A stretch of DNA of 52,318 bases from Melioribacter roseus (GTDB lineage Bacteria; Bacteroidota; Ignavibacteria; Ignavibacteriales; Melioribacteraceae). Shown here piece after piece: positions 14,211-24,586 of the stretch. The stretch covers positions 1-52,318 of the forward strand of contig DYHH01000026.1 in the NCBI GenBank assembly GCA_020724265.1, given 5' to 3'. The stretch's first letter is position 1. Every line of letters begins with the position of its first letter. A program made the translations under genes and the position numbers. The notes under the pieces were generated by a model. It made no database searches and was not told the origin of the DNA. It worked only from the letters and a program-made list of their open reading frames with translations.

Positions 14211-14657
14211 TTAGAGAAGATAATTTTCATTAAAATCAATTTTGTGTTTTTTCAATAGTTTGATGTATTCATCTTTAAAAGATGTCTTCTTGTGATGTTC
14301 CTCTTGATTTTTCACATATTCAATCAATCTATCTTTTTCTGAAATTGAATGCGTAAATGCGCCATATCCATTTTGCCAACCATCAAAACTCGGAAAGAGG
14401 TTTTCGTTTTTAATAAAGTCAGTGGTGCTGAGCTTTATATCCTTTATTAAATCTGACAACGCAATAGTCGGATGGAGATGTGTAACAATATGTAAATGAT
14501 CTTCAACACCATTAATTCTGTATAGATGACAATTTTTATTTTCCAACAATCCCCAAATGTATTTAAAAAGTTTTGTGCGATTTTCTTTTTTAAGTGCAGG
14601 TCCGCGTTGTTTTGTTGAAAAGGTAATATGATAGAGAATTTGTGTGTAGGTGCTCAT
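14211..14657 (-). CDS. REP-associated / IS200-like Y1 transposase
   Basis: This 148-residue protein has the single-domain fold of IS200/IS605 TnpA and RAYT proteins. The metal-binding HUH motif appears as HLH at residues 54-56 in GVEDHLHIVTHLHP. The conserved GYGAFTHS segment and the LIEYVKNQEEHH segment follow, and Y114 in the latter is the likely catalytic tyrosine. Such enzymes cut and join single-stranded DNA at small hairpins. The ATG at 14657 has GGAGAGGAAA upstream; a 38-codon extension to 14771 would read through the right-hand repeat and is rejected. It is flanked on both sides by REP-like hairpins. Confidence 0.92.
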   Translation of the reverse strand: MSTYTQILYHITFSTKQRGPALKKENRTKLFKYIWGLLENKNCHLYRINGVEDHLHIVTHLHPTIALSDLIKDIKLSTTDFIKNENLFPSFDGWQNGYGAFTHSISEKDRLIEYVKNQEEHHKKTSFKDEYIKLLKKHKIDFNENYLL

Positions 14658-14755
14658 TTTCCTCTCCATATTTATTTTGGAATTGAATGGGTACAATATA
14701 AATAAAACATCTTTTTGTTGAACCCCGTTAGGGTTCAATTTTATTGGAAATCTTA

Positions 14756-14957
14756 TTCTATTCGTATTCAACTACTTAGTGGTTGGTCGTTTTCGAAAAC
14801 TTGATACGGAAATTCCGAATAGAGTTAACGTGAAATGAAAACAAAAGAATTCACTACAGACTTAATCAAGAGAAAAATAACTATTAAGAAAGAATTTAGC
14901 GTGAATAGAATTGATCAAAAAAAATCAAACAATCCCAAAGGGATTGAACATGAATAG
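14756..14957 (+). repeat. 202-bp direct repeat, right copy
   Basis: This is the second copy of the block at 13961-14162, in the same orientation and of identical length. The transposase gene lies between the copies and is read on the opposite strand. Confidence 0.9.
14835..14957 (+). CDS. Small ORF (40 aa) inside right direct repeat
   Basis: This is the counterpart of the ORF at 14040-14162, beginning MKTKEFTTDL and ending GIEHE. It differs at three residues. Start, stop and length are preserved. Expression is not supported by any clear ribosome binding site. Confidence 0.3.
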   Translation: MKTKEFTTDLIKRKITIKKEFSVNRIDQKKSNNPKGIEHE

Positions 14958-15005: not shown

Positions 15006-15614
15006 TCATTCCTTAAAATAATTCTTTGCCGTTTCATTCTCGGGGTCAAGCACCAAAACATCCCACATAAGATGACCGGCTCTATCCGAATCACCTTGAT
15101 TGTATTTAACCAATGCAAGCTCTGTTAAAAATGTTATATCCGTTGGATAAACTGTAAGCATCTTATTTAATATCTGTTCGGCTTGATCATGTTTTTTCTG
15201 CATTCGTAATGAATATGCCAACCGCATATTGCCGTAATAATTATAATGATCAACCGAAACAACTTGATAAGCAATTGACGCCGCATCATTATATTTATTC
15301 TGTGCAAGAAGCGGCAGCATTAATCCATTCTTTGCTTCAAGTGATGTTGGAACAATCTGTATCGCTTTTTGATAATGTTCAATTGAATTTGCATATCTGC
15401 CGAGTAAATAATAAAGCCATCCCAATCTTAAATTAACTGTATAACCATTTGGATATTCACTTAAAACCGAAGAGAGCGAACGAATAGCATTTTCGTAATC
15501 TTCAATTTGCTCATAGTTAAAGGATTTGCTATAAGCTTTTTGAATTTCTTCGGGTGAAATTGCAAACAGTGAACAAACAAAAACGAATAAGAATACTAAT
15601 GTTAATTTTTTCAT
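15006..15614 (-). CDS. Secreted TPR-repeat protein, 202 aa
   Basis: The signal peptide (residues 1-18) is followed by about four tetratricopeptide repeats, for example YTVNLRLGWLYYLLGRYANSIEHYQKAIQIVP around residues 58-89 read in two halves, and another near 146-180. The protein is likely periplasmic and acts as a protein-binding scaffold. AGGGGAGCC precedes the ATG. It is the third gene of an operon whose first two genes encode a urea-transporter/M23 fusion and a barrel protein. The gap to the barrel gene is 9 bases. Its 3' end abuts the REP element. Confidence 0.85.
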   Translation of the reverse strand: MKKLTLVFLFVFVCSLFAISPEEIQKAYSKSFNYEQIEDYENAIRSLSSVLSEYPNGYTVNLRLGWLYYLLGRYANSIEHYQKAIQIVPTSLEAKNGLMLPLLAQNKYNDAASIAYQVVSVDHYNYYGNMRLAYSLRMQKKHDQAEQILNKMLTVYPTDITFLTELALVKYNQGDSDRAGHLMWDVLVLDPENETAKNYFKE

Positions 15615-15623
15615 TTGGCTCCC

Positions 15624-16475
15624 CTATAAATTGAATCCGGCTAATATTATAAACTTAGTTGAAGATGCCGAAGTACCATATGCCTCTTCATCAAACTTAT
15701 CATACTCAACTCCCCCTTTCAAGAAAATATTTGGTGTGAATGAATAAGTAACCGAACCTCCGAAACCGGTTTTCATTAAATCGGCAACGTTGTAAACAAG
15801 AAAACCGTTTTGACGAACCGCAAACTTTTGCTCACCCAAAAGAACATAAGCTGAAACGGAAATTTTATTATTGTAATAAGTTATTGTTTCCTTAACAGAA
15901 AAATAATTTTTCTTATCTGAAATATTTTTTTTGCTGAGTATTATATAATCCAATTGTGTGTTAAAATAAATTCCTTGTGTTCTATCGAATGAAAAGTTTA
16001 ATCCGAAATTAGGAGATAATTGAATCGCCATAAATGACGGATTATATTCTGAGTAATTAGAAAAGTAAACATTGAACATCGCATCCCATTTTCTGAATTT
16101 ATACTTACCAACTCCGCCGAATAAAACATAGCTTTGATCGGTTAAAATGTCATCGGAAACTATATAATGTCCACCTAATCTAAAAAGCCATTCCGGAATT
16201 GATTTATTTGTGTATGCAACTGTTAAATCATATTGTTTTATTTTAAATGGAAAAGCATCAAAAACATAATCGAAGTTAGAGTAATCGAAAGCCATTTCAA
16301 GCGAGCTGTTTAAATCAATTTCAAATGCACCGTAAATGCCGGTTAAGAAACTGTTTTTTCTTACACCGGAATCTTTATAATTAATTGGAAGATAGTACGG
16401 CATAACGGTAACCGACTGAGCATTTATCCCTAATATTAAAATCAACAGCATAAATATTTTTAATAACTTATTCAT
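15624..16475 (-). CDS. Outer-membrane barrel-like protein, 283 aa
   Basis: A signal peptide (residues 1-19, ending GINAQ) is followed by repeated amphipathic strands such as LEMAFDYSNFDYVF, DAMFNVYFSNYSEYN, GIYFNTQLDYIIL and KISVSAYVLLGEQK. The protein closes with FIILAGFNL, typical of an outer-membrane barrel. I do not recognise a named family. Its start overlaps the end of the urea-transporter/M23 gene by 8 bases and it precedes the TPR gene by 9 bases. The three products are therefore probably made together and may form an envelope complex. Confidence 0.78.
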   Translation of the reverse strand: MNKLLKIFMLLILILGINAQSVTVMPYYLPINYKDSGVRKNSFLTGIYGAFEIDLNSSLEMAFDYSNFDYVFDAFPFKIKQYDLTVAYTNKSIPEWLFRLGGHYIVSDDILTDQSYVLFGGVGKYKFRKWDAMFNVYFSNYSEYNPSFMAIQLSPNFGLNFSFDRTQGIYFNTQLDYIILSKKNISDKKNYFSVKETITYYNNKISVSAYVLLGEQKFAVRQNGFLVYNVADLMKTGFGGSVTYSFTPNIFLKGGVEYDKFDEEAYGTSASSTKFIILAGFNL

Positions 16476-18537
16476 TATTGGTTTTCCTTAATTCCAAGTC
16501 TTCCATTGTTATTGAAGCAAATCCTTTGAATTCATCTAACACAATCTCTGCTTTTTTATTTATTCCCAAAGTTTTTGAATTTACGGTTGATTCAATTTTC
16601 TTGGGTGAAATAAATCTCAAACTCACATCTATCTTAAAGAGATTGTGACTAAACGAACTGAGAAATAATACGGCGGATTTTTTAATCTTACCAATAGTAG
16701 AACCAATCGGAATATTATCTTCCCATAATAAATTTTCACGAAAAGCCAGCGGGAAACGGGGGATAGCTTGCAGTATCATATTTAGGTATTTGTCATTTCC
16801 TTCAACACTGTAAAAATAAAATGTACCGTCCTTCCTCTCAAAATAAAGTTTGCCTTTGCCGGAATCGAAATAGAAAGTTCCGTCAACTTCCATTTTCACT
16901 ATTAAATTAAGTCGATCAATATTTTTCCCGTTTCGATAAACATCAAAAGGAACTTCATCATCAAGAACATAGGTCATTAAGTTATCATAACTGCTTTCAA
17001 TGTGAATCGGTTCAACTACTTTATCAACACCGGGTAAGTTGTTTGAGTAAAACTTTCCTTCTTCAATAAAATTTATAAAACTGAATGGAATAGTATAAGC
17101 ACCGACATCATCACTTTCTTGAACTTGAATATGAATATGTGGCTGCGGAGAATAACCGGAATTACCGCATAATCCAAGAATTGAACTTTGTTCAACCCAA
17201 TTGCCTTCTTTTACTTTGATTGAATCTTCCGCGAAGTGTGATAACTCAACAAAGAAACCGCGTTCATCTTTAATCATAACTAAGTTGCCCCAGTTATTTG
17301 TTTTATCAACCGAGCCGATAGGAAAGTCTTTCAAATCATTTACAACTTTTACAACTCTTCCTCTAACCGGAGAAAGAACAGGCTTTTTGTAGCAATAATA
17401 ATCTTCAAGTGAATCACCGTTATTTTTGAAACTGCTTCCTTCTTCATCTGTAATGATAAAATCATAAGCATATTTCCAATTACCTTTGTGAGTCCATTTA
17501 CCGTCAAAGCCCTGATAGACAGTCCACTTTCCCGAAAAAGGTAACTGTACGGTTGTATTTGAACCGGGATACCTTCTTGTGTTTGTTAAATAAAGATCGA
17601 GTGTTTCTTCGGGTGTTCCTTTTATCAGCCAAGCTATTTGCGGATATTTTATCAATCCCAATAAGTAAATAAATGAAAGCGATATCACGTTAAACGGAAG
17701 TGTAAAAGCCGGGATTCCAAAGTTTGACCAGAATACTAAAACAGAATCAAGAACAATTGTAGAAGTACAAACAGCAATCACGGCAAGCAAATAACTTTTG
17801 ATAGACGGAACCAGAAATACACCACCGACTGCAATTGCAATCAATATAAAATTGAAGTGATTGATATCCGCAAATGATTGTTCAAACGAACCGAACATTA
17901 ATCCGACTACAATTGAACCGGAATAATATCCAATCACCGAAAGGAGAAACATAATTCTCGACATCGAAAGAAATAGAAGCGATATAACTATCCCGGAAAT
18001 TACATCCGTCATAAAAAATATTGCACCGAATGCTCTGAAATAACCTTCAACCCAAAAGGGAAGAATAATATTTAGATCATATACGGTATGTGGATACAAT
18101 CCGGTTACGAATAGATTTGAATATTGTGTTGCAGCCAAATAAGCAATTGATGACGCAATTACAAAAGGAAGACTTAAAATCGGAAGTCTTAGGTAATAAT
18201 AAAAAACATTATACATTGTCACGGTTATTATAAAAGTAAGGATACCGGCGATAACCATAAAGAGAATCGTAAGATCGCTAAATCTAAATAAGTAACCGAT
18301 CGCAAGTCCGGTGAGAAGTGGATTGTAAGTATAGAATCCTTCATTCAAGAATTCGTTGCTCATATTTATTATACGGGCAAAAACATAAGCGGAGATAACT
18401 GCAACAATTCCGCCAAGCGCAACGTATGGATTGATAAATGTAATCAATAACAACAGCAACCCGATCCATTTACTTTTGAAGAAGTAAATCTCCGAGTAGC
18501 TTTGTAGTAATGCTTTTATATGGTTGTTGAGTTTCAT
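16468..18537 (-). CDS. Urea transporter-like / M23 peptidase fusion protein
   Basis: The first 300 residues are a polytopic membrane domain that resembles bacterial urea transporters. It has the segment LNEGFYTYNPLLTGLAIGYLF (split here as NEGFYTYNPLL then TGLAIGYLF) and a second-half NFGIPAFTLPF motif, as in the two homologous halves of that family. Residues about 390-500 are an M23-type endopeptidase domain, with PVRGRVVKVV, a WGNLVMIKDERGFFVELSHF segment and HIHIQ at 467-471. The last 180 residues are beta-rich and unassigned. No ribosome binding site is evident before the ATG. M23 domains usually act on peptidoglycan and need export, so the peptidase part should face the periplasm. It is the first gene of the three-gene operon. 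Confidence 0.82.
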   Translation of the reverse strand: MKLNNHIKALLQSYSEIYFFKSKWIGLLLLLITFINPYVALGGIVAVISAYVFARIINMSNEFLNEGFYTYNPLLTGLAIGYLFRFSDLTILFMVIAGILTFIITVTMYNVFYYYLRLPILSLPFVIASSIAYLAATQYSNLFVTGLYPHTVYDLNIILPFWVEGYFRAFGAIFFMTDVISGIVISLLFLSMSRIMFLLSVIGYYSGSIVVGLMFGSFEQSFADINHFNFILIAIAVGGVFLVPSIKSYLLAVIAVCTSTIVLDSVLVFWSNFGIPAFTLPFNVISLSFIYLLGLIKYPQIAWLIKGTPEETLDLYLTNTRRYPGSNTTVQLPFSGKWTVYQGFDGKWTHKGNWKYAYDFIITDEEGSSFKNNGDSLEDYYCYKKPVLSPVRGRVVKVVNDLKDFPIGSVDKTNNWGNLVMIKDERGFFVELSHFAEDSIKVKEGNWVEQSSILGLCGNSGYSPQPHIHIQVQESDDVGAYTIPFSFINFIEEGKFYSNNLPGVDKVVEPIHIESSYDNLMTYVLDDEVPFDVYRNGKNIDRLNLIVKMEVDGTFYFDSGKGKLYFERKDGTFYFYSVEGNDKYLNMILQAIPRFPLAFRENLLWEDNIPIGSTIGKIKKSAVLFLSSFSHNLFKIDVSLRFISPKKIESTVNSKTLGINKKAEIVLDEFKGFASITMEDLELRKTNNE

Positions 18538-18564
18538 TTATTAGTTAATTGTTTTACTCAAAGG

Positions 18565-18651
18565 AACTCATCCCCCCGCCCCTTCTCTTAAAAAGAGAAG
18601 GGGAGCAATTAAAAGTCCCTCTCTTTTCAAGAGAGGGATTTAGGGTGAGTT
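18565..18651. repeat. Double-hairpin dispersed repeat
   Basis: Two adjacent hairpins, CCCCTTCTCTT/AAGAGAAGGGG (18579-18603) and TCCCTCTCTT/AAGAGAGGGA (18616-18638), are enclosed by an outer pair AACTCA-TCCC and GGG-TGAGTT. The right end supplies the last codons and the stop (18640-18642) of the PLP decarboxylase gene. It can also serve as a terminator for that gene. Confidence 0.85.
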
Positions 18652-20004
18652 TAAATTAAGCTTTAGTCTCTCCGGCAGCTTTTCTCTTCTTGTTATATCA
18701 CTCAAGTCTTCAGCTTCGCGGATGATGTCGACTTCTTTGTTCGTTCCGATTAAAACTACATTCGGTCGGAATTCGATAAATTGCATCCACTGTGTAACAT
18801 TATATGCGCCAACCGGTGATAAAATCAATCTCGTTCCTTTTTCCATCGGCGGCAGGAGTCTTCCTTCTTCAATCACATCAATGTTCATGCATAAAGGACC
18901 ATTAATAATTGCCGGTTCGTTTGTACCGTCAACTTGTCTATCTATTTCGATATTGTACTTATACCAAAAAGAAGTATAAAGTAAATTTACTCCCGCATCC
19001 GCTATGTATGATTTTCTCCCGTCGGGTAAACGCTTAGATGCAATGATTGAGGTAATCAAATAACCTGCTTCATCAACTATTGCTCTACCGGTTTCAAGAT
19101 AAAGTTTTGGTAAATCTCCGCCGCGTAAATTTCTAAAAAGAGAAGTTGAAATACTTTCGGCATATTCATCAACGGAAGGAATCATAACATCCGGCTCTTG
19201 ATACGTACCTTTCAATTTACTTTTTGAAGGAAAGCCGCCACCGATATCGTAATATTCAATTTTCATTTTGAATTTTTCTTCAACTTCATAACCGAACTTA
19301 ATCATCTTTTCAATCTCAACAGCGTAAGCATTCGGTTCTAAAATAAATGTACCGATATGACAATGTAATCCATTCAATACAAGTTTACCTTTACTTACCA
19401 TTCGTTTTACTGCATCCATAGCTTGACCGGAATCAAGATTTAATCCGAAGCGCGACCATTGCGGATAAATACCGGTATCCATATTTACTCTCATACCGAC
19501 TTTAATTTTCTTTTTCAGTTTATCGGCAACTTTTTCCAAATCATAAATTTCATCAAAGTGATCTATGTTTATCATCGCCCCTTCTTTAACTGCTTTTTCA
19601 AGTGCGGATAGGTTTTTATACGGACCATTGAAGATGATTTTATCACCCGGTATTCCAATACTTCTTGCTTTATCATATTCCATTTCGGAAACAACTTCTG
19701 CTATAGCCCCCTCTTGATGAAGTATTGAGCAGACGGCAGGCAGGTAGTTCGTTTTGTATGACCACCCGAAAGCAACGTTCGGATATCTTGTTGAAAAGGA
19801 ATTATAATATGCTCTATATTTTTGCCGCAGTGCAGTCTCTGAAAAAACAAACAAAGGTGATCCGAATTTTTCTACTAATTCATTAATGGCAACACCGTCT
19901 ATCTCTGTTCTTACTTTTCTTGTATAATAAGGACTACTGCCGAACTTATTCATCATTCCGGTTTGTACTTTTAGAATCACGGGTTTTTCATATTTCTTAG
20001 CCAT
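18640..20004 (-). CDS. PLP-dependent decarboxylase, LysA/ODC fold type III
   Basis: This 454-residue enzyme has the layout of diaminopimelate/ornithine/arginine decarboxylases. The PLP lysine is K84 in GWSYKTNYLP. The glycine-rich phosphate loop appears as YDIGGGFPS, the GLHCHIGT strand is present, and ETGRAIVDEAG is a typical active-site strand. It is last in a cassette with an ATP-grasp enzyme and a PqqD-like protein. The start at 20004 lies one base past the ATP-grasp stop; AGGGAGAAAATTAAG precedes it. No dap or lys genes are near, so a dedicated role on a peptide or carrier substrate is more likely than lysine synthesis. That role is inference. The C-terminal codons come from an intergenic repeat. 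Confidence 0.88.
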   Translation of the reverse strand: MAKKYEKPVILKVQTGMMNKFGSSPYYTRKVRTEIDGVAINELVEKFGSPLFVFSETALRQKYRAYYNSFSTRYPNVAFGWSYKTNYLPAVCSILHQEGAIAEVVSEMEYDKARSIGIPGDKIIFNGPYKNLSALEKAVKEGAMINIDHFDEIYDLEKVADKLKKKIKVGMRVNMDTGIYPQWSRFGLNLDSGQAMDAVKRMVSKGKLVLNGLHCHIGTFILEPNAYAVEIEKMIKFGYEVEEKFKMKIEYYDIGGGFPSKSKLKGTYQEPDVMIPSVDEYAESISTSLFRNLRGGDLPKLYLETGRAIVDEAGYLITSIIASKRLPDGRKSYIADAGVNLLYTSFWYKYNIEIDRQVDGTNEPAIINGPLCMNIDVIEEGRLLPPMEKGTRLILSPVGAYNVTQWMQFIEFRPNVVLIGTNKEVDIIREAEDLSDITRREKLPERLKLNLNSP

Positions 20005-20005
20005 C

Positions 20006-21043
20006 TTAATTTTCTCCCTTAGTAATAACATTTTGGAATGTTTTCATATCGGTAATCGTTTCGTAAGTGTAGCGGACATAAAGTTTACCGGCTTCATAAT
20101 CTTGGTTTTCTTCAAAAGGTAAACCGAAAGATTTCTTAACCATGTTTGCCGGTAAATTAATTCCGCATCCGGTTGCAAAATACGACCAAGCGGGAAAGCG
20201 TGGATTAATTTCTATCAAGTAAATCTTGTTCTTATCAACAATGCACTCAAGCTCAAACGGACCTTTCCATTTATACTCTTTAACAAAATTATCTGCTGCA
20301 TTAAGCATCAACTCGTTTTTTATTGTTACGCCCGTCCAAATTTTCCCGAGTGAAGTTATCCACATTTTTTTAATACCGAGTTTGCCGATCATATTACCTT
20401 CACCGTCACCGACACCGACAACATTCAACTCTTCTCCTTTAACAACTTCCTGTAGAATTATAGGAAAACCCCATTCGGCAGAAATTTTATGAAAGTGTGA
20501 AATTGCTTCTTGAGTTGTGTAAGCTCTCTCGGCTTTGTAGTATGCGCCTTTTACCATTACGGGAAGACCGATTTTGTCAACAGCTTTTATTAATTCATCC
20601 GGTGAATTTACTACTGCTGTTTTTGGTATATCTATATTAATCTTTTCTGCAACTTGAACAAGTTTATCTTTTGCTCGGAGTTTGTATTGGTTTTCGGTAG
20701 GAACAAAAACTTCAACTCCCAAAGCTTCTATTTCTTTTGTGTATTTAGTGTAAAGAGGTAACTCGGAATCAAGATTGGGAATTATATAATCTAATCCGTA
20801 TGATTTTTTTATGTAAGCCAATCTTTCGAGTAAAGCATCTTTGCCGCTTGAAGGATAAGAAAGAATAAACGTTTTATCGACAACCCAATCCATATAAATA
20901 CCTGGCTCCATTGCATCGTATGCGAGACCGATAATTTTAACATTCAAATCCGGATCTTCTTTTAATGCTCTTGCAATACCGACACCTGGTCCCGGGTTAT
21001 CAACTGCATTGATTCCCGAAACAGCAATTTTCAGTTCATTCAT
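20006..21043 (-). CDS. ATP-grasp ligase (carbamoyl-phosphate-synthase-like fold)
   Basis: This 345-residue protein has an N-terminal Rossmann-like pre-ATP-grasp domain (GINAVDNPGPGVGIARAL, about 10-27). An ATP-grasp core follows at about 115-310, with the lysine strand LPVMVKGAYY, the ILQEVVKGEELNVV strand, and the metal-binding pair in PFELECIV and LIEINPRFPAW. It would join a carboxylate to an amine or thiol by way of an acyl phosphate. It follows the PqqD-like gene by 8 bases and precedes the decarboxylase by one base. GAGGTGTTAG supports the start. The substrate is unknown. Confidence 0.9.
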   Translation of the reverse strand: MNELKIAVSGINAVDNPGPGVGIARALKEDPDLNVKIIGLAYDAMEPGIYMDWVVDKTFILSYPSSGKDALLERLAYIKKSYGLDYIIPNLDSELPLYTKYTKEIEALGVEVFVPTENQYKLRAKDKLVQVAEKINIDIPKTAVVNSPDELIKAVDKIGLPVMVKGAYYKAERAYTTQEAISHFHKISAEWGFPIILQEVVKGEELNVVGVGDGEGNMIGKLGIKKMWITSLGKIWTGVTIKNELMLNAADNFVKEYKWKGPFELECIVDKNKIYLIEINPRFPAWSYFATGCGINLPANMVKKSFGLPFEENQDYEAGKLYVRYTYETITDMKTFQNVITKGEN

Positions 21044-21051
21044 CTAACACC

Positions 21052-21288
21052 TCAATACAGGTTGTATGTATAAAGATGTGAAACAAATTCGGAAATGTCT
21101 TTTGATATTTCTTCCGGTGTGTCTTCAAATTCTTTTGATAATTCTTCGGCTATTTGATCAATCTCTTTGCCGTCGCGTAAAGAGTTGATTATAAATAAGC
21201 CGGTGGGATTAACAGTGTAGCTGTCTCCGGTTGTAGGATCAAAAATAAAACCTTCCGAATTAACAGCAAGTTTACTTAACCGGTTCAT
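21052..21288 (-). CDS. PqqD-like small protein (RiPP recognition element or carrier)
   Basis: At 78 residues with LAVNSEGFIFDPTTGDSY and TVNPTGLFIINSLRDGK, it follows the pattern of PqqD-family proteins: a short beta hairpin followed by a three-helix winged fold. PqqD-like proteins bind the leader of a precursor peptide and present it to modifying enzymes. GGAGGGGAGT precedes the ATG, a strong ribosome binding site. It heads the three-gene cassette. No short precursor peptide with an obvious leader is seen beside it. It is acidic, so an amino-group-carrier role similar to LysW is an alternative. Confidence 0.8.
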   Translation of the reverse strand: MNRLSKLAVNSEGFIFDPTTGDSYTVNPTGLFIINSLRDGKEIDQIAEELSKEFEDTPEEISKDISEFVSHLYTYNLY

Positions 21289-21375: not shown

Positions 21376-21720
21376 TTAGTGCACCAGATATTCTTCCATA
21401 GACCTGATGTCCATAATTTCAGAGTAACCATTTCCGTCAAACACTTCAGCTGTTGTTTCTTGATTCATCATTAATTTATAAGCAAACTGCAATAGATGAA
21501 ATTCTATGTTAAAAGTTTTTGTGCATTCATTGCAGATTTGCAGCCCTTTAATTTCTCCGTTTGAATTTAAAACTAAATCTATTTGTGAGTTTGAATAGAT
21601 TACAGAATCTAACCCGGTGTATTGATTAATCTGCATTTCGACAAGTCTTTCTTCCGCATCTTCGATAGACGATAATCTATCGTACTCTACCGGGATTTCA
21701 AAAATAACTTTGTAGAACAT
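21376..21720 (-). CDS. Hypothetical protein with CxxC, 114 aa
   Basis: I do not recognise this protein. It has a single CNEC (C63, C66) in LQICNECTKTF, which could bind zinc or act in redox, and a mixed alpha/beta pattern without membrane segments. It is on the same strand as the PqqD cassette and 87 bases upstream of it, so cotranscription is possible but not shown. No strong ribosome binding site is visible. It diverges from the thioredoxin-like gene, which starts 91 bases away. Confidence 0.55.
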   Translation of the reverse strand: MFYKVIFEIPVEYDRLSSIEDAEERLVEMQINQYTGLDSVIYSNSQIDLVLNSNGEIKGLQICNECTKTFNIEFHLLQFAYKLMMNQETTAEVFDGNGYSEIMDIRSMEEYLVH

Positions 21721-22432: not shown

Positions 22433-24586
22433 TTATTTAATTAACTGAAGTTTTACCGAATGAGTTTTCTGTGGTGTGATTGCAACAAAAATATAAATAC
22501 CGCTTGAAACATTTTGACCGTAGTCGTTTCGTCCATCCCAAACCAACTCAAATCTACCTTTCATGTTGTAATCTATTTCGAAAGTTTTTATAACTTGACC
22601 GAGTATGTTGTATATCTTAAAGGAAATACTTTCATTCGAAAGAGAAGAAGGAAGATTAATTTGGATCCTTGTTTGATTATTAAACGGGTTAGGGTATGCC
22701 GCGAGAGTAAAATCATCATTAACATTTGTTGAATCATCTGTTTCAACGTCGGAAGGACCACCGCCGTCATCCCGGCAATCATAACAAACTTGACCTCCCA
22801 GTGAAGGCTCTAAACAGATAAAGGCCGTGTGCTTGGAAAGAACCCTGTTTGCAATACTTGTGTTAATAATTTCACTCATGATATTGTTGCTGCTGCTTCC
22901 CTGTGCTTCAAGCTCTTTTATGTAACGGCTTATCCACATTTTTATTAAAGTCGTATCCGAATCATCAATCATTGCTTCATCTATTTCAAAGTTTTTTGAA
23001 AAGACCGTCCCCTCATAAATACCGTTCATTTCAATTCTGAATGGAGGTGAACCGTTAAACTTACCGACCTGGAAAATCGGTGCATCAAGAAAAGCGCTGG
23101 AGCCGGTTAGGTTTATATTATACCTGCCGTAGCAAAAACCCCCGGCAAGACTGGTATAAAGATCGAAAGTGCTGATAAACCCTCCTATACCCTGGAAAGT
23201 TTTTTCCAATAGTGAAGAATAAGAATAACCGTCTCGTATTCTATAAAAATTTCCGCCTGTCATCCTTGTAATATTGTTATAGAAATACTGATTACCTTCA
23301 TAATACTGGTTGCCGATATATATATAACTTATATTTTGATTTTGAAAGTCGGCAACATGGAACGTTATATCCGATTCAATTTCATCGAATATATCATCTA
23401 TTAATTCATTTGCGGGTTCGGGATTCATTAATTCATCACTATTTGAGACGATAAGAATTGTTCCTTTTGTACCGTGAGAATTTACAAATTCTATTGCATT
23501 ACCAATTAACGAGGGGAGATTGCTGTAATTTGCAAGATTAGCCGCCGTAATATTTGCAAATGTATTTTCAATCGTTATACTGTCTGCAGGAAGCCACACC
23601 TCACTTATGCGTTCTATATTCAATTTAGAGAAAGCAATATTAAAACTATCCGAGTCGTTTAGGTAATTTAACAGTGCCATTTTAACTCCGTTCAAAATAT
23701 CAGTTTTGTTTAAAGAAGAGTTCGGAGATTCATAATCAAACAACACCATTACATTTTTGCTTGTTTCGTTTGTTAATATTTCCGATGGGAGAACGGCTAA
23801 TTGATAATAATCCTCATTTCGTTCGGTGAAAGTGCTTAAATAAAAACCATTTTCCATTGGAGAACTGAGCGAGAACGTCAAACTGTTTCTAAGATATTCT
23901 TTTGGAATTACAACCGATTTGTACTCTCCGAAGACGGTATCGACTTCCGACTCGAAATCCAGATCGTTGTATTCAAGAATACCAGGGTTATCCCATTTCT
24001 CAGTGGGGTAAACAACAAGTTTTAAATTCTCGACTTGAGCAGCCGAGGTTCTAAGAATTTCAACGGGTAAAGGTGCTGTAACTAAATTATGTGTCCAATT
24101 GGTTGGTACCATATAAGTTATCTTTACTTTTCTTGGCATACCTTTCATAATAGGAAAAACTCTTAACTCATAATACCCGTCACGCTTAAATAAAATCGAT
24201 GGGTCTAAGTTTCTTCCGACAATTTCATTATAGATTTGCCCGGCAGTCCACTCGTCCATAATTTCCGCTTGAATAATTTCATCTTCGATCCAAAGCCATG
24301 AATCATGAACAAATGCATTGCCGTGTAAATTAAACTTTAGTTCTACTTCTAAGCTGTCAAGAGGATCAAAGTAAGTTTGATCTGCAGAAAAAGTTAAATA
24401 TAAACCGTACTCAAAAAAAACTCCTTTTGGTCTTATCGACAATGTAGCTTCTTCAATTATTCCGGGTTCACCCCACCAACCCCATTGCGGGTTGATTATC
24501 TGGAGAGAATTTTGTGCATTAATTGAAGAGAATGTACTGAATAATATTAGAATGACAAGCCAAATCTTAAATATTATTTTCATCAC
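22433..24586 (-). CDS. VIT/VWA-domain secreted protein with T9SS sorting domain
   Basis: The signal peptide (about 1-24) is followed by a VIT-like domain (about 40-170), recognisable by DEWTAGQIYNEIV and YELRVFPIMKGMPRKVKITY. A VWA-like domain (about 280-450) has VMVLFDYESPNSS, a degenerate metal-binding MIDAS region. The end is a T9SS sorting domain (about 630-717) with AAYPNPFNNQTR and SSGIYIFVA. Family members with VIT plus VWA resemble inter-alpha-trypsin inhibitor heavy chains and often mediate surface adhesion. AAGGAGAGTG precedes two adjacent ATGs; the first is used here. The protein has 717 residues and is monocistronic. Confidence 0.85.
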   Translation of the reverse strand: MMKIIFKIWLVILILFSTFSSINAQNSLQIINPQWGWWGEPGIIEEATLSIRPKGVFFEYGLYLTFSADQTYFDPLDSLEVELKFNLHGNAFVHDSWLWIEDEIIQAEIMDEWTAGQIYNEIVGRNLDPSILFKRDGYYELRVFPIMKGMPRKVKITYMVPTNWTHNLVTAPLPVEILRTSAAQVENLKLVVYPTEKWDNPGILEYNDLDFESEVDTVFGEYKSVVIPKEYLRNSLTFSLSSPMENGFYLSTFTERNEDYYQLAVLPSEILTNETSKNVMVLFDYESPNSSLNKTDILNGVKMALLNYLNDSDSFNIAFSKLNIERISEVWLPADSITIENTFANITAANLANYSNLPSLIGNAIEFVNSHGTKGTILIVSNSDELMNPEPANELIDDIFDEIESDITFHVADFQNQNISYIYIGNQYYEGNQYFYNNITRMTGGNFYRIRDGYSYSSLLEKTFQGIGGFISTFDLYTSLAGGFCYGRYNINLTGSSAFLDAPIFQVGKFNGSPPFRIEMNGIYEGTVFSKNFEIDEAMIDDSDTTLIKMWISRYIKELEAQGSSSNNIMSEIINTSIANRVLSKHTAFICLEPSLGGQVCYDCRDDGGGPSDVETDDSTNVNDDFTLAAYPNPFNNQTRIQINLPSSLSNESISFKIYNILGQVIKTFEIDYNMKGRFELVWDGRNDYGQNVSSGIYIFVAITPQKTHSVKLQLIK

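Follow-up and report, generated by a model that had tools for sequence, protein, structure and literature searches.

Proteins acting as recognition elements (RREs) in the biosynthesis of ribosomally synthesized and post-translationally modified peptides (RiPPs) serve as markers of peptide natural products. Discrete RREs of lasso peptide, pyrroloquinoline quinone (PQQ) and LPP pathways (TfuB1/FusB1, 6jx3; LppB, 9x8z; PqqD) share membership in the PqqD family, a YxxP-type partner and a pocket comprising Asn, Asp and Phe residues. As described in the available portion of one study, discrete lasso RREs mostly bind the motif [Y/W]xxPx[L/V/I/A/F/Y], with PQQ precursors carrying a similar motif (PMC13381572), and YxxP, together with variants such as LxxP, is listed for RREs in the available portion of another (PMC12710340). 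The same family, motif and pocket were encountered in a 52,318-nucleotide stretch of DNA from Melioribacter roseus (contig DYHH01000026.1; assembly GCA_020724265.1), the whole of which is referred to here as the window. There, genes encoding a PqqD-like protein, an ATP-grasp ligase and a fold-III decarboxylase relying on pyridoxal phosphate (PLP) open a larger cassette, and the likely client of the PqqD-like protein is the N-terminus of a 454-residue enzyme, the decarboxylase, no precursor having been found. The relevant features of the window are as follows:

21052-21288, minus strand: PqqD-like (RRE-type) protein, 78 residues (PF05402 match)
20006-21043, minus strand: ATP-grasp ligase, 345 residues, resembling carbamoyl phosphate synthetase (CPSase-like, PRK12767 type; family matches)
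18640-20004, minus strand: fold-III (alanine-racemase fold) PLP decarboxylase, 454 residues (family and structure matches)
19930-20004, minus strand: residues 1-25 of the decarboxylase (MAKKYEKPVILKVQTGMMNKFGSSP), an N-terminal, leader-like tail containing a YxxPxI motif

An earlier note on this DNA had described the first three as a tightly packed set of genes, and the coordinates and family scores support both the arrangement and the identities then given. The genes are separated by gaps of 8 bases (PqqD-like/ATP-grasp) and 1 base (ATP-grasp/decarboxylase). The PqqD-like protein matches PF05402 with 53.4 bits (cut-off 23.4), the ATP-grasp protein lies above cut-off in four ATP-grasp-type families, and the decarboxylase matches PF02784 (115 bits) and PF00278 (44.7 bits), both above cut-off; the NCBIfam and Pfam names agree with those assigned earlier. 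The decarboxylase was taken to start with the ATG at 20004, as the in-frame ATG at 20031 would run into the ATP-grasp gene. The home genome also encodes another PqqD-like protein (L002, G000:C56:193931-194092), adjoining genes judged by eye to be outer-membrane-like and to resemble the major facilitator superfamily, with no ATP-grasp or radical S-adenosylmethionine (SAM)-like open reading frame (ORF) noticed within the 3.2 kb viewed.

Examination of the decarboxylase revealed its fold to be preceded by a conserved tail, the first 25 residues of which follow the pattern [YF]ExPx[ILV]...G..NKFG. Across 118 aligned decarboxylases, position 5 is Tyr in 110, Phe in seven and Leu in one, Pro8 and an Ile, Leu or Val at position 10 are found in every sequence, Gly16 and Gly22 are found in 110 and 114, respectively, and Lys20 is present in 115, being replaced by Pro in the other three. 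In an AlphaFold2 model, most of residues 1-24 have predicted local distance difference test scores below 50 and no secondary structure, with residues 31-80 scoring 93-95; the tail is, according to this model, conserved yet unstructured. Its sequence resembles the YxxP motif that PqqD-type RREs are reported to bind. No YxxP-type motif was seen near the N-terminus of nine of ten LysA proteins read from stop to stop; the tenth (L033) has FAQPYI by chance in its leading part, and a profile built from 27 tails gave no match to it in the genome concerned (G035). Comparison of five tails with NCBIfam leader models returned one weak match, to tryglysin (E 0.056), and one tail compared with Pfam gave no match.

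The PqqD-like protein presents the corresponding pocket. N33, D70 and F74 of LppB, reported in the available part of PMC13381572 to bind YxxP, with D70 forming a hydrogen bond to the leader Tyr, correspond to N27, D64 and F68 of the window protein (P0001) in a weak alignment (E 0.44) in which positions were counted by hand. These residues recur in 115, 111 and 109 of 119 aligned PqqD-like proteins, respectively. Pairing of tail and pocket was considered across the 117 loci containing both genes. As read by script, 107 combined Tyr with Asp, seven combined Phe with a residue other than Asp (Y, Y, Y, H, Y, G and A), and three offered no readable motif; by alignment, two of these could be assigned (L176, Tyr with Asp; L197, Leu with Ser), leaving L133 unassigned. 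Hence, a tail Tyr is accompanied by Asp64 in 108 of 108 cases, and where Tyr is missing so is Asp, in eight of eight. Indeed, when all 78 PqqD and 345 ATP-grasp alignment columns were compared, only PqqD column 64 fully separated the Phe from the Tyr group, the best ATP-grasp column reaching 0.785. On an ATP-grasp tree of 116 sequences, each trait changes three times, and the changes coincide in three of three independent pairs; by hand arithmetic, the chance of three random changes falling on the same three branches (lengths 0.32, 0.15 and 1.96 of 42.1 in total) is about 1e-5. Because the tail Tyr and PqqD Asp64 co-vary, the PqqD-like protein very probably docks the decarboxylase by binding its tail. 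The earlier suggestion that the PqqD-like protein binds a leader would accordingly need amending in one respect: a leader-type sequence does exist, yet it appears to be carried by the N-terminal tail of the decarboxylase and not by a RiPP precursor. Should a recognition sequence indeed reside on a metabolic enzyme, leader/RRE pairs would double as a docking system, which would explain some PqqD genes that lack precursors.

The three genes are the opening of a larger cassette, ordered PqqD / ATP-grasp / fold-III decarboxylase / UT-M23 / barrel / TPR, the second half of which comprises:

16468-18537, minus strand: fusion of a urea-transporter (UT) domain and an M23 metallopeptidase domain
15624-16475, minus strand: outer-membrane beta-barrel protein, porin-like (structure model)
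15006-15614, minus strand: tetratricopeptide repeat (TPR) protein, 202 residues, with an N-terminus that by eye is signal-peptide-like

As such, the extent of 18640-21288 given in the earlier note, correct for the three genes, is too small, since the UT/M23, barrel and TPR genes travel along. An initial set comprised 49 loci, made up of the window itself, nine named contigs and 39 regions fetched in addition, and here too these families were found side by side. The set was enlarged to 123 loci, with the ATP-grasp gene lying on the fetched piece in 122; both sets hold duplicates (L006 = L062 and L011 = L196). PqqD, ATP-grasp and decarboxylase genes appear in this order in 119 of the 122, and UT/M23 comes directly after them in 115 of those 119 loci. 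The arrangement PqqD-ATP-grasp-decarboxylase-UT/M23-TPR was seen in 98 of the 122 loci; three have the TPR match upstream instead, 14 contain the first four genes only and four the first three. L005, L007, L010 and the 123rd locus, L061, are cut at PqqD or the decarboxylase by contig ends, and two of the four loci without UT/M23 (L173 and L177) stop at a contig edge. No TPR match was found in the 1.8 to 7.4 kb available past UT/M23 in L090, L097, L098, L150, L197 and L199; in L097, moreover, the PqqD gene lies some 2 kb upstream of the ATP-grasp gene, with another ORF in between. The spot beside the TPR gene is occupied by three ORF families (F5, F7 and F8) that BLAST clustering keeps apart, of which the window's member was modeled as a barrel. 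Matches to the window's barrel protein were obtained in L008-L012 (not L007), and a single ORF in L008 appears to carry both TPR-like (by eye) and barrel parts.

Cassette-level ATP-grasp relatives were detected in 23 of 58 related genomes (G027 only in part, at the end of a contig), 33 of 395 genomes from the window's phylum, 75 of 395 genomes of another class of that phylum (one, G459, partial) and five of 240 genomes of the phylum of L008, the L008 genome included. The named contigs are labeled Ignavibacteria/Ignavibacteriales (two), Aquificota/Aquificaceae (two), Verrucomicrobia (three), "bacterium" (one) and Akkermansia muciniphila (one, label doubtful); because all records are binned or metagenomic-looking, single labels may be wrong. 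L004 and L006 belong to the window's genus (86-87% identity). The cassette suggests that several phyla possess an uncharacterised metabolite along with a route for it through the envelope.

Read from sequence comparison, then, are the cassette, the tail, its match to a known motif and its co-variation with the PqqD pocket. The reading favored here, held with somewhat more confidence than doubt, is that the cassette serves biosynthesis and transport, with the PqqD-like protein acting as an RRE-type adaptor that has the decarboxylase, and not a precursor peptide, as client. The PqqD-like protein would clamp the YxxP-type motif on the flexible tail and thereby recruit the decarboxylase to the ATP-grasp enzyme. 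An amide bond would be formed by the ligase between the side chain of an amino acid and a partner, the alpha-amino and carboxyl groups of the amino acid staying free, and the decarboxylase would then take off the carboxyl group, as FigA and FigC do with citryl-ornithine in the rhizoferrin pathway. BtrJ and BtrK of butirosin biosynthesis act likewise on glutamyl-BtrI. Amide formation followed by decarboxylation has in our estimation a slight edge over other chemistries. The small product would cross the inner membrane by the UT channel, with the M23, TPR and barrel parts delivering it to or through the outer membrane; the odds that the product is exported are judged to be even. The pathway, making a small molecule and moving it across the cell envelope, appears to be undescribed: searches of an open library of papers (with subscription papers and preprints lying outside it), judged by titles and opening lines of abstracts, turned up no description of the cassette, in agreement with the earlier note.

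In both sequence and fold, the decarboxylase is closest to the N-citrylornithine decarboxylase FigC/FslC, with 7kh2 as its best structural match. The two systems have in common a ligase alongside a fold-III decarboxylase with Met beside the catalytic Cys; they differ in that the ligase is an ATP-grasp enzyme here and a synthetase of the NIS (non-ribosomal peptide synthetase-independent siderophore) type in FigA/FslA, in that the leader-like tail and PqqD are additions here, and in that the score against FslC (NF041039) is 242.5, under the cut-off of 500. All 118 aligned decarboxylases have the Schiff-base lysine (position 84), and the loop at the catalytic Cys reads C-M-[NQ]-I-D in 116 of 118, the other two being gaps. 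The Met in question aligns with FigC M355, which in the available part of PMC7857480 is described as replacing an acidic residue that contacts the distal amino group of the substrate in relatives. Because of this Met beside the Cys, the substrate of the decarboxylase may, by analogy with FigC, have a blocked distal end. On sequence grounds, the decarboxylase departs from a typical LysA: it misses the lysA (TIGR01048) cut-off of 297.9 with 221.5 bits and carries the CMNID-type loop in place of the CESGD (nine) or CETGD (one) of LysA from 10 loci. As for butirosin, BtrI, BtrJ and BtrK form a comparable trio of small protein, ATP-grasp enzyme and fold-III decarboxylase, in which BtrI is an acyl carrier protein (ACP), in contrast to the PqqD-like protein here, and BtrK ranked only 26-27 in the fold search. 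The Btr genes are described, in the part of the source available, as jointly making the aminohydroxybutyrate group.

Turning to the envelope components, the UT domain matches PF03253 with 202.9 bits (cut-off 25) and NCBIfam urea_trans_yut with 119.3, under the cut-off of 274.6. In the M23 domain, H350, D359, H434, H467 and H469, which we take to be the metal-binding and catalytic residues, are kept in 45 of 46 sequences, the other being a gap, and for this reason the domain may be active. The barrel model consists of an N-terminal helix and 14 beta strands. Its structural matches are porins and channels akin to them (FadL, OmpG and CymA), the best template modeling score being about 0.65, with BcsC and PelBC ranking lower. 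The TPR protein matches TPR_Slam below the cut-off of that family.

Several observations weigh against the favored reading. FigC contacts citrate through H357 and R387 in a docked model (available part of PMC7857480); here, the equivalents are Ile375 in 116 of 118 and Gln405 in 115 of 118 decarboxylases, the rest being gaps, and the substrate is for this reason not citryl-ornithine. The published motif has Tyr or Trp, whereas Phe occurs in seven of 118 tails, and in the three deepest relatives (L197-L199) Pro is kept and both tails and pockets are altered. A sign test on the three coincident pairs gives p = 0.25, the lowest attainable value, and the three branches include a long, flagged one. 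In L163 and L178, no UT/M23 or TPR match was found in some 5 kb downstream of the decarboxylase, which means that the transport half does not accompany every cassette; these two loci are natural test cases of whether the enzymes can work without it. Likeness of the barrel to general porins gives no direction of transport. Finally, homologues of the UT domain are urea channels, and uptake would therefore suit as well as export.

Indeed, the cassette might instead serve scavenging, with the barrel, TPR, M23 and UT components importing peptidoglycan-derived or urea-like nitrogen compounds for conversion by the cytosolic enzymes. The UT score, the retention of the putative M23 catalytic residues and the porin-like barrel would all fit. 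An ATP-using ligase next to a decarboxylase, however, seems biosynthetic in style, and TPR-plus-barrel pairs, such as the single ORF of L008, recall exporters such as BcsC and Slam, the sub-threshold TPR_Slam match being borne in mind. Uptake is considered unlikely.

A variant would make the decarboxylase its own RiPP-like substrate, such that the ATP-grasp ligase charges Lys20 (..NKFG) of the PqqD-held tail, which then swings the amino acid into the active site. Were this true, the enzyme would possess a built-in, leader-guided carrier arm. The presence of Pro at this position in three deep relatives weakens the idea, which is regarded as rather improbable.

A conventional RiPP pathway, in which a precursor encoded elsewhere is presented by PqqD to the ATP-grasp enzyme and tailored by the decarboxylase, in the manner of graspetides, was also considered. 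Leaders are the usual ligands of PqqD-like proteins, ATP-grasp enzymes make graspetides, and graspetide clusters share with the cassette an ATP-grasp ligase and a helper protein. Yet no precursor was found here. When 39 genomes were searched with the tail profile, 15 strong matches (E < 1e-11) were obtained, covering all 14 cassette genomes (G002 twice), with the next best at 0.02; in 46 cassette genomes, 45 gave one strong match each, with the next best at 0.04, and G948, whose tail has diverged, was missed. Across these 85 genomes, nothing besides decarboxylase starts scored below E 0.02. All strong matches fall in open frames of 447-488 residues adjoining ATP-grasp positions, as expected of the decarboxylase; a free peptide bearing the leader was thus not detected. 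A survey of conserved short ORFs, proposed in the earlier note and run over the 49 loci, yielded 67 families of 30-75 residues in at least four loci, 14 of which have any member not overlapping a longer gene; among the 12 of these listed, no non-overlapping members lie outside the window's genus, save single cases at edges or in gene-poor stretches. Together, the searches bear out the earlier statement that no precursor peptide is present, within a scope that would miss peptides with an unlike leader or shorter than 30 residues. In a motif search, CxxxCxxC ORFs of at least 200 residues numbered only seven among 122 loci, two being radical-SAM-like by eye, such that a radical SAM partner of the PQQ type is not evident, a point of difference from the discrete lasso, PQQ and LPP systems. 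In the available part of a graspetide survey (PMC8939145), the word decarboxylase is absent and PqqD is mentioned solely by way of analogy and within a reference. With the motif sitting on the decarboxylase and tracking the PqqD pocket, a RiPP product is deemed highly unlikely.

The notion that the small protein serves as a carrier akin to LysW, as raised in the earlier note, or to an ACP, and is charged with an amino acid by the ATP-grasp enzyme, draws on the Btr trio but fared poorly: the protein clearly belongs to the PqqD family, its YxxP-pocket residues are conserved, its C-termini vary, no carrier-type residue is evident by eye in the alignment, and LysW is absent among Pfam and NCBIfam matches of the window proteins. 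Such a role seems very remote.

That the decarboxylase is the lysine-pathway LysA of these organisms, a prospect true in the narrow sense that it is the sole fold-III match of the home genome and that no other lysA match occurs in any of four genomes of the window's genus, can be set aside as extremely improbable given its sub-threshold lysA score, a loop unlike that of LysA in 116 of 116 lettered sequences, a separate lysA above cut-off in 16 of 23 cassette genomes (the exceptions being G000-G003, G026, G027 and G029), and a best home dapA match under the cut-off of that family, such that lysine auxotrophy is possible.

Two further proposals were rejected. A role in anti-phage defence found no match in a PADLOC scan of proteins P0001-P0006, the TPR protein lying outside the scan. 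Plasmid-borne relatives came down to a single match (28%), on a plasmid of Streptomyces, where no annotated neighbor within 9 kb is named PqqD or decarboxylase, many being unnamed in an incomplete gene table.

Upstream of PqqD, a 114-residue protein (21376-21720) without Pfam or NCBIfam match has, among the loci compared, matches within the genus only, and a VIT protein with a FlgD-type Ig domain lies farther off (22433-24586). In 17 loci (L043-L056 and others), a secreted-looking protein of about 280 residues (family F6), with a C-terminus that by eye resembles those of type IX secretion substrates, is usually found directly upstream of PqqD. Between the decarboxylase and UT/M23 genes (18538-18641), the window contains a short hairpin with arms at 18613-18625 and 18629-18641 (92% complementary) and a degenerate copy with three mismatches at 18581-18601. 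In the genus relatives L006, L059 and L062, the same spot holds an ORF that is GIY-YIG-like by eye, with a shorter member of this family in L004, another relative from the genus. Directly downstream of the TPR gene is an IS200-like (Y1) transposase (14211-14771), possibly tied to the hairpin repeats.

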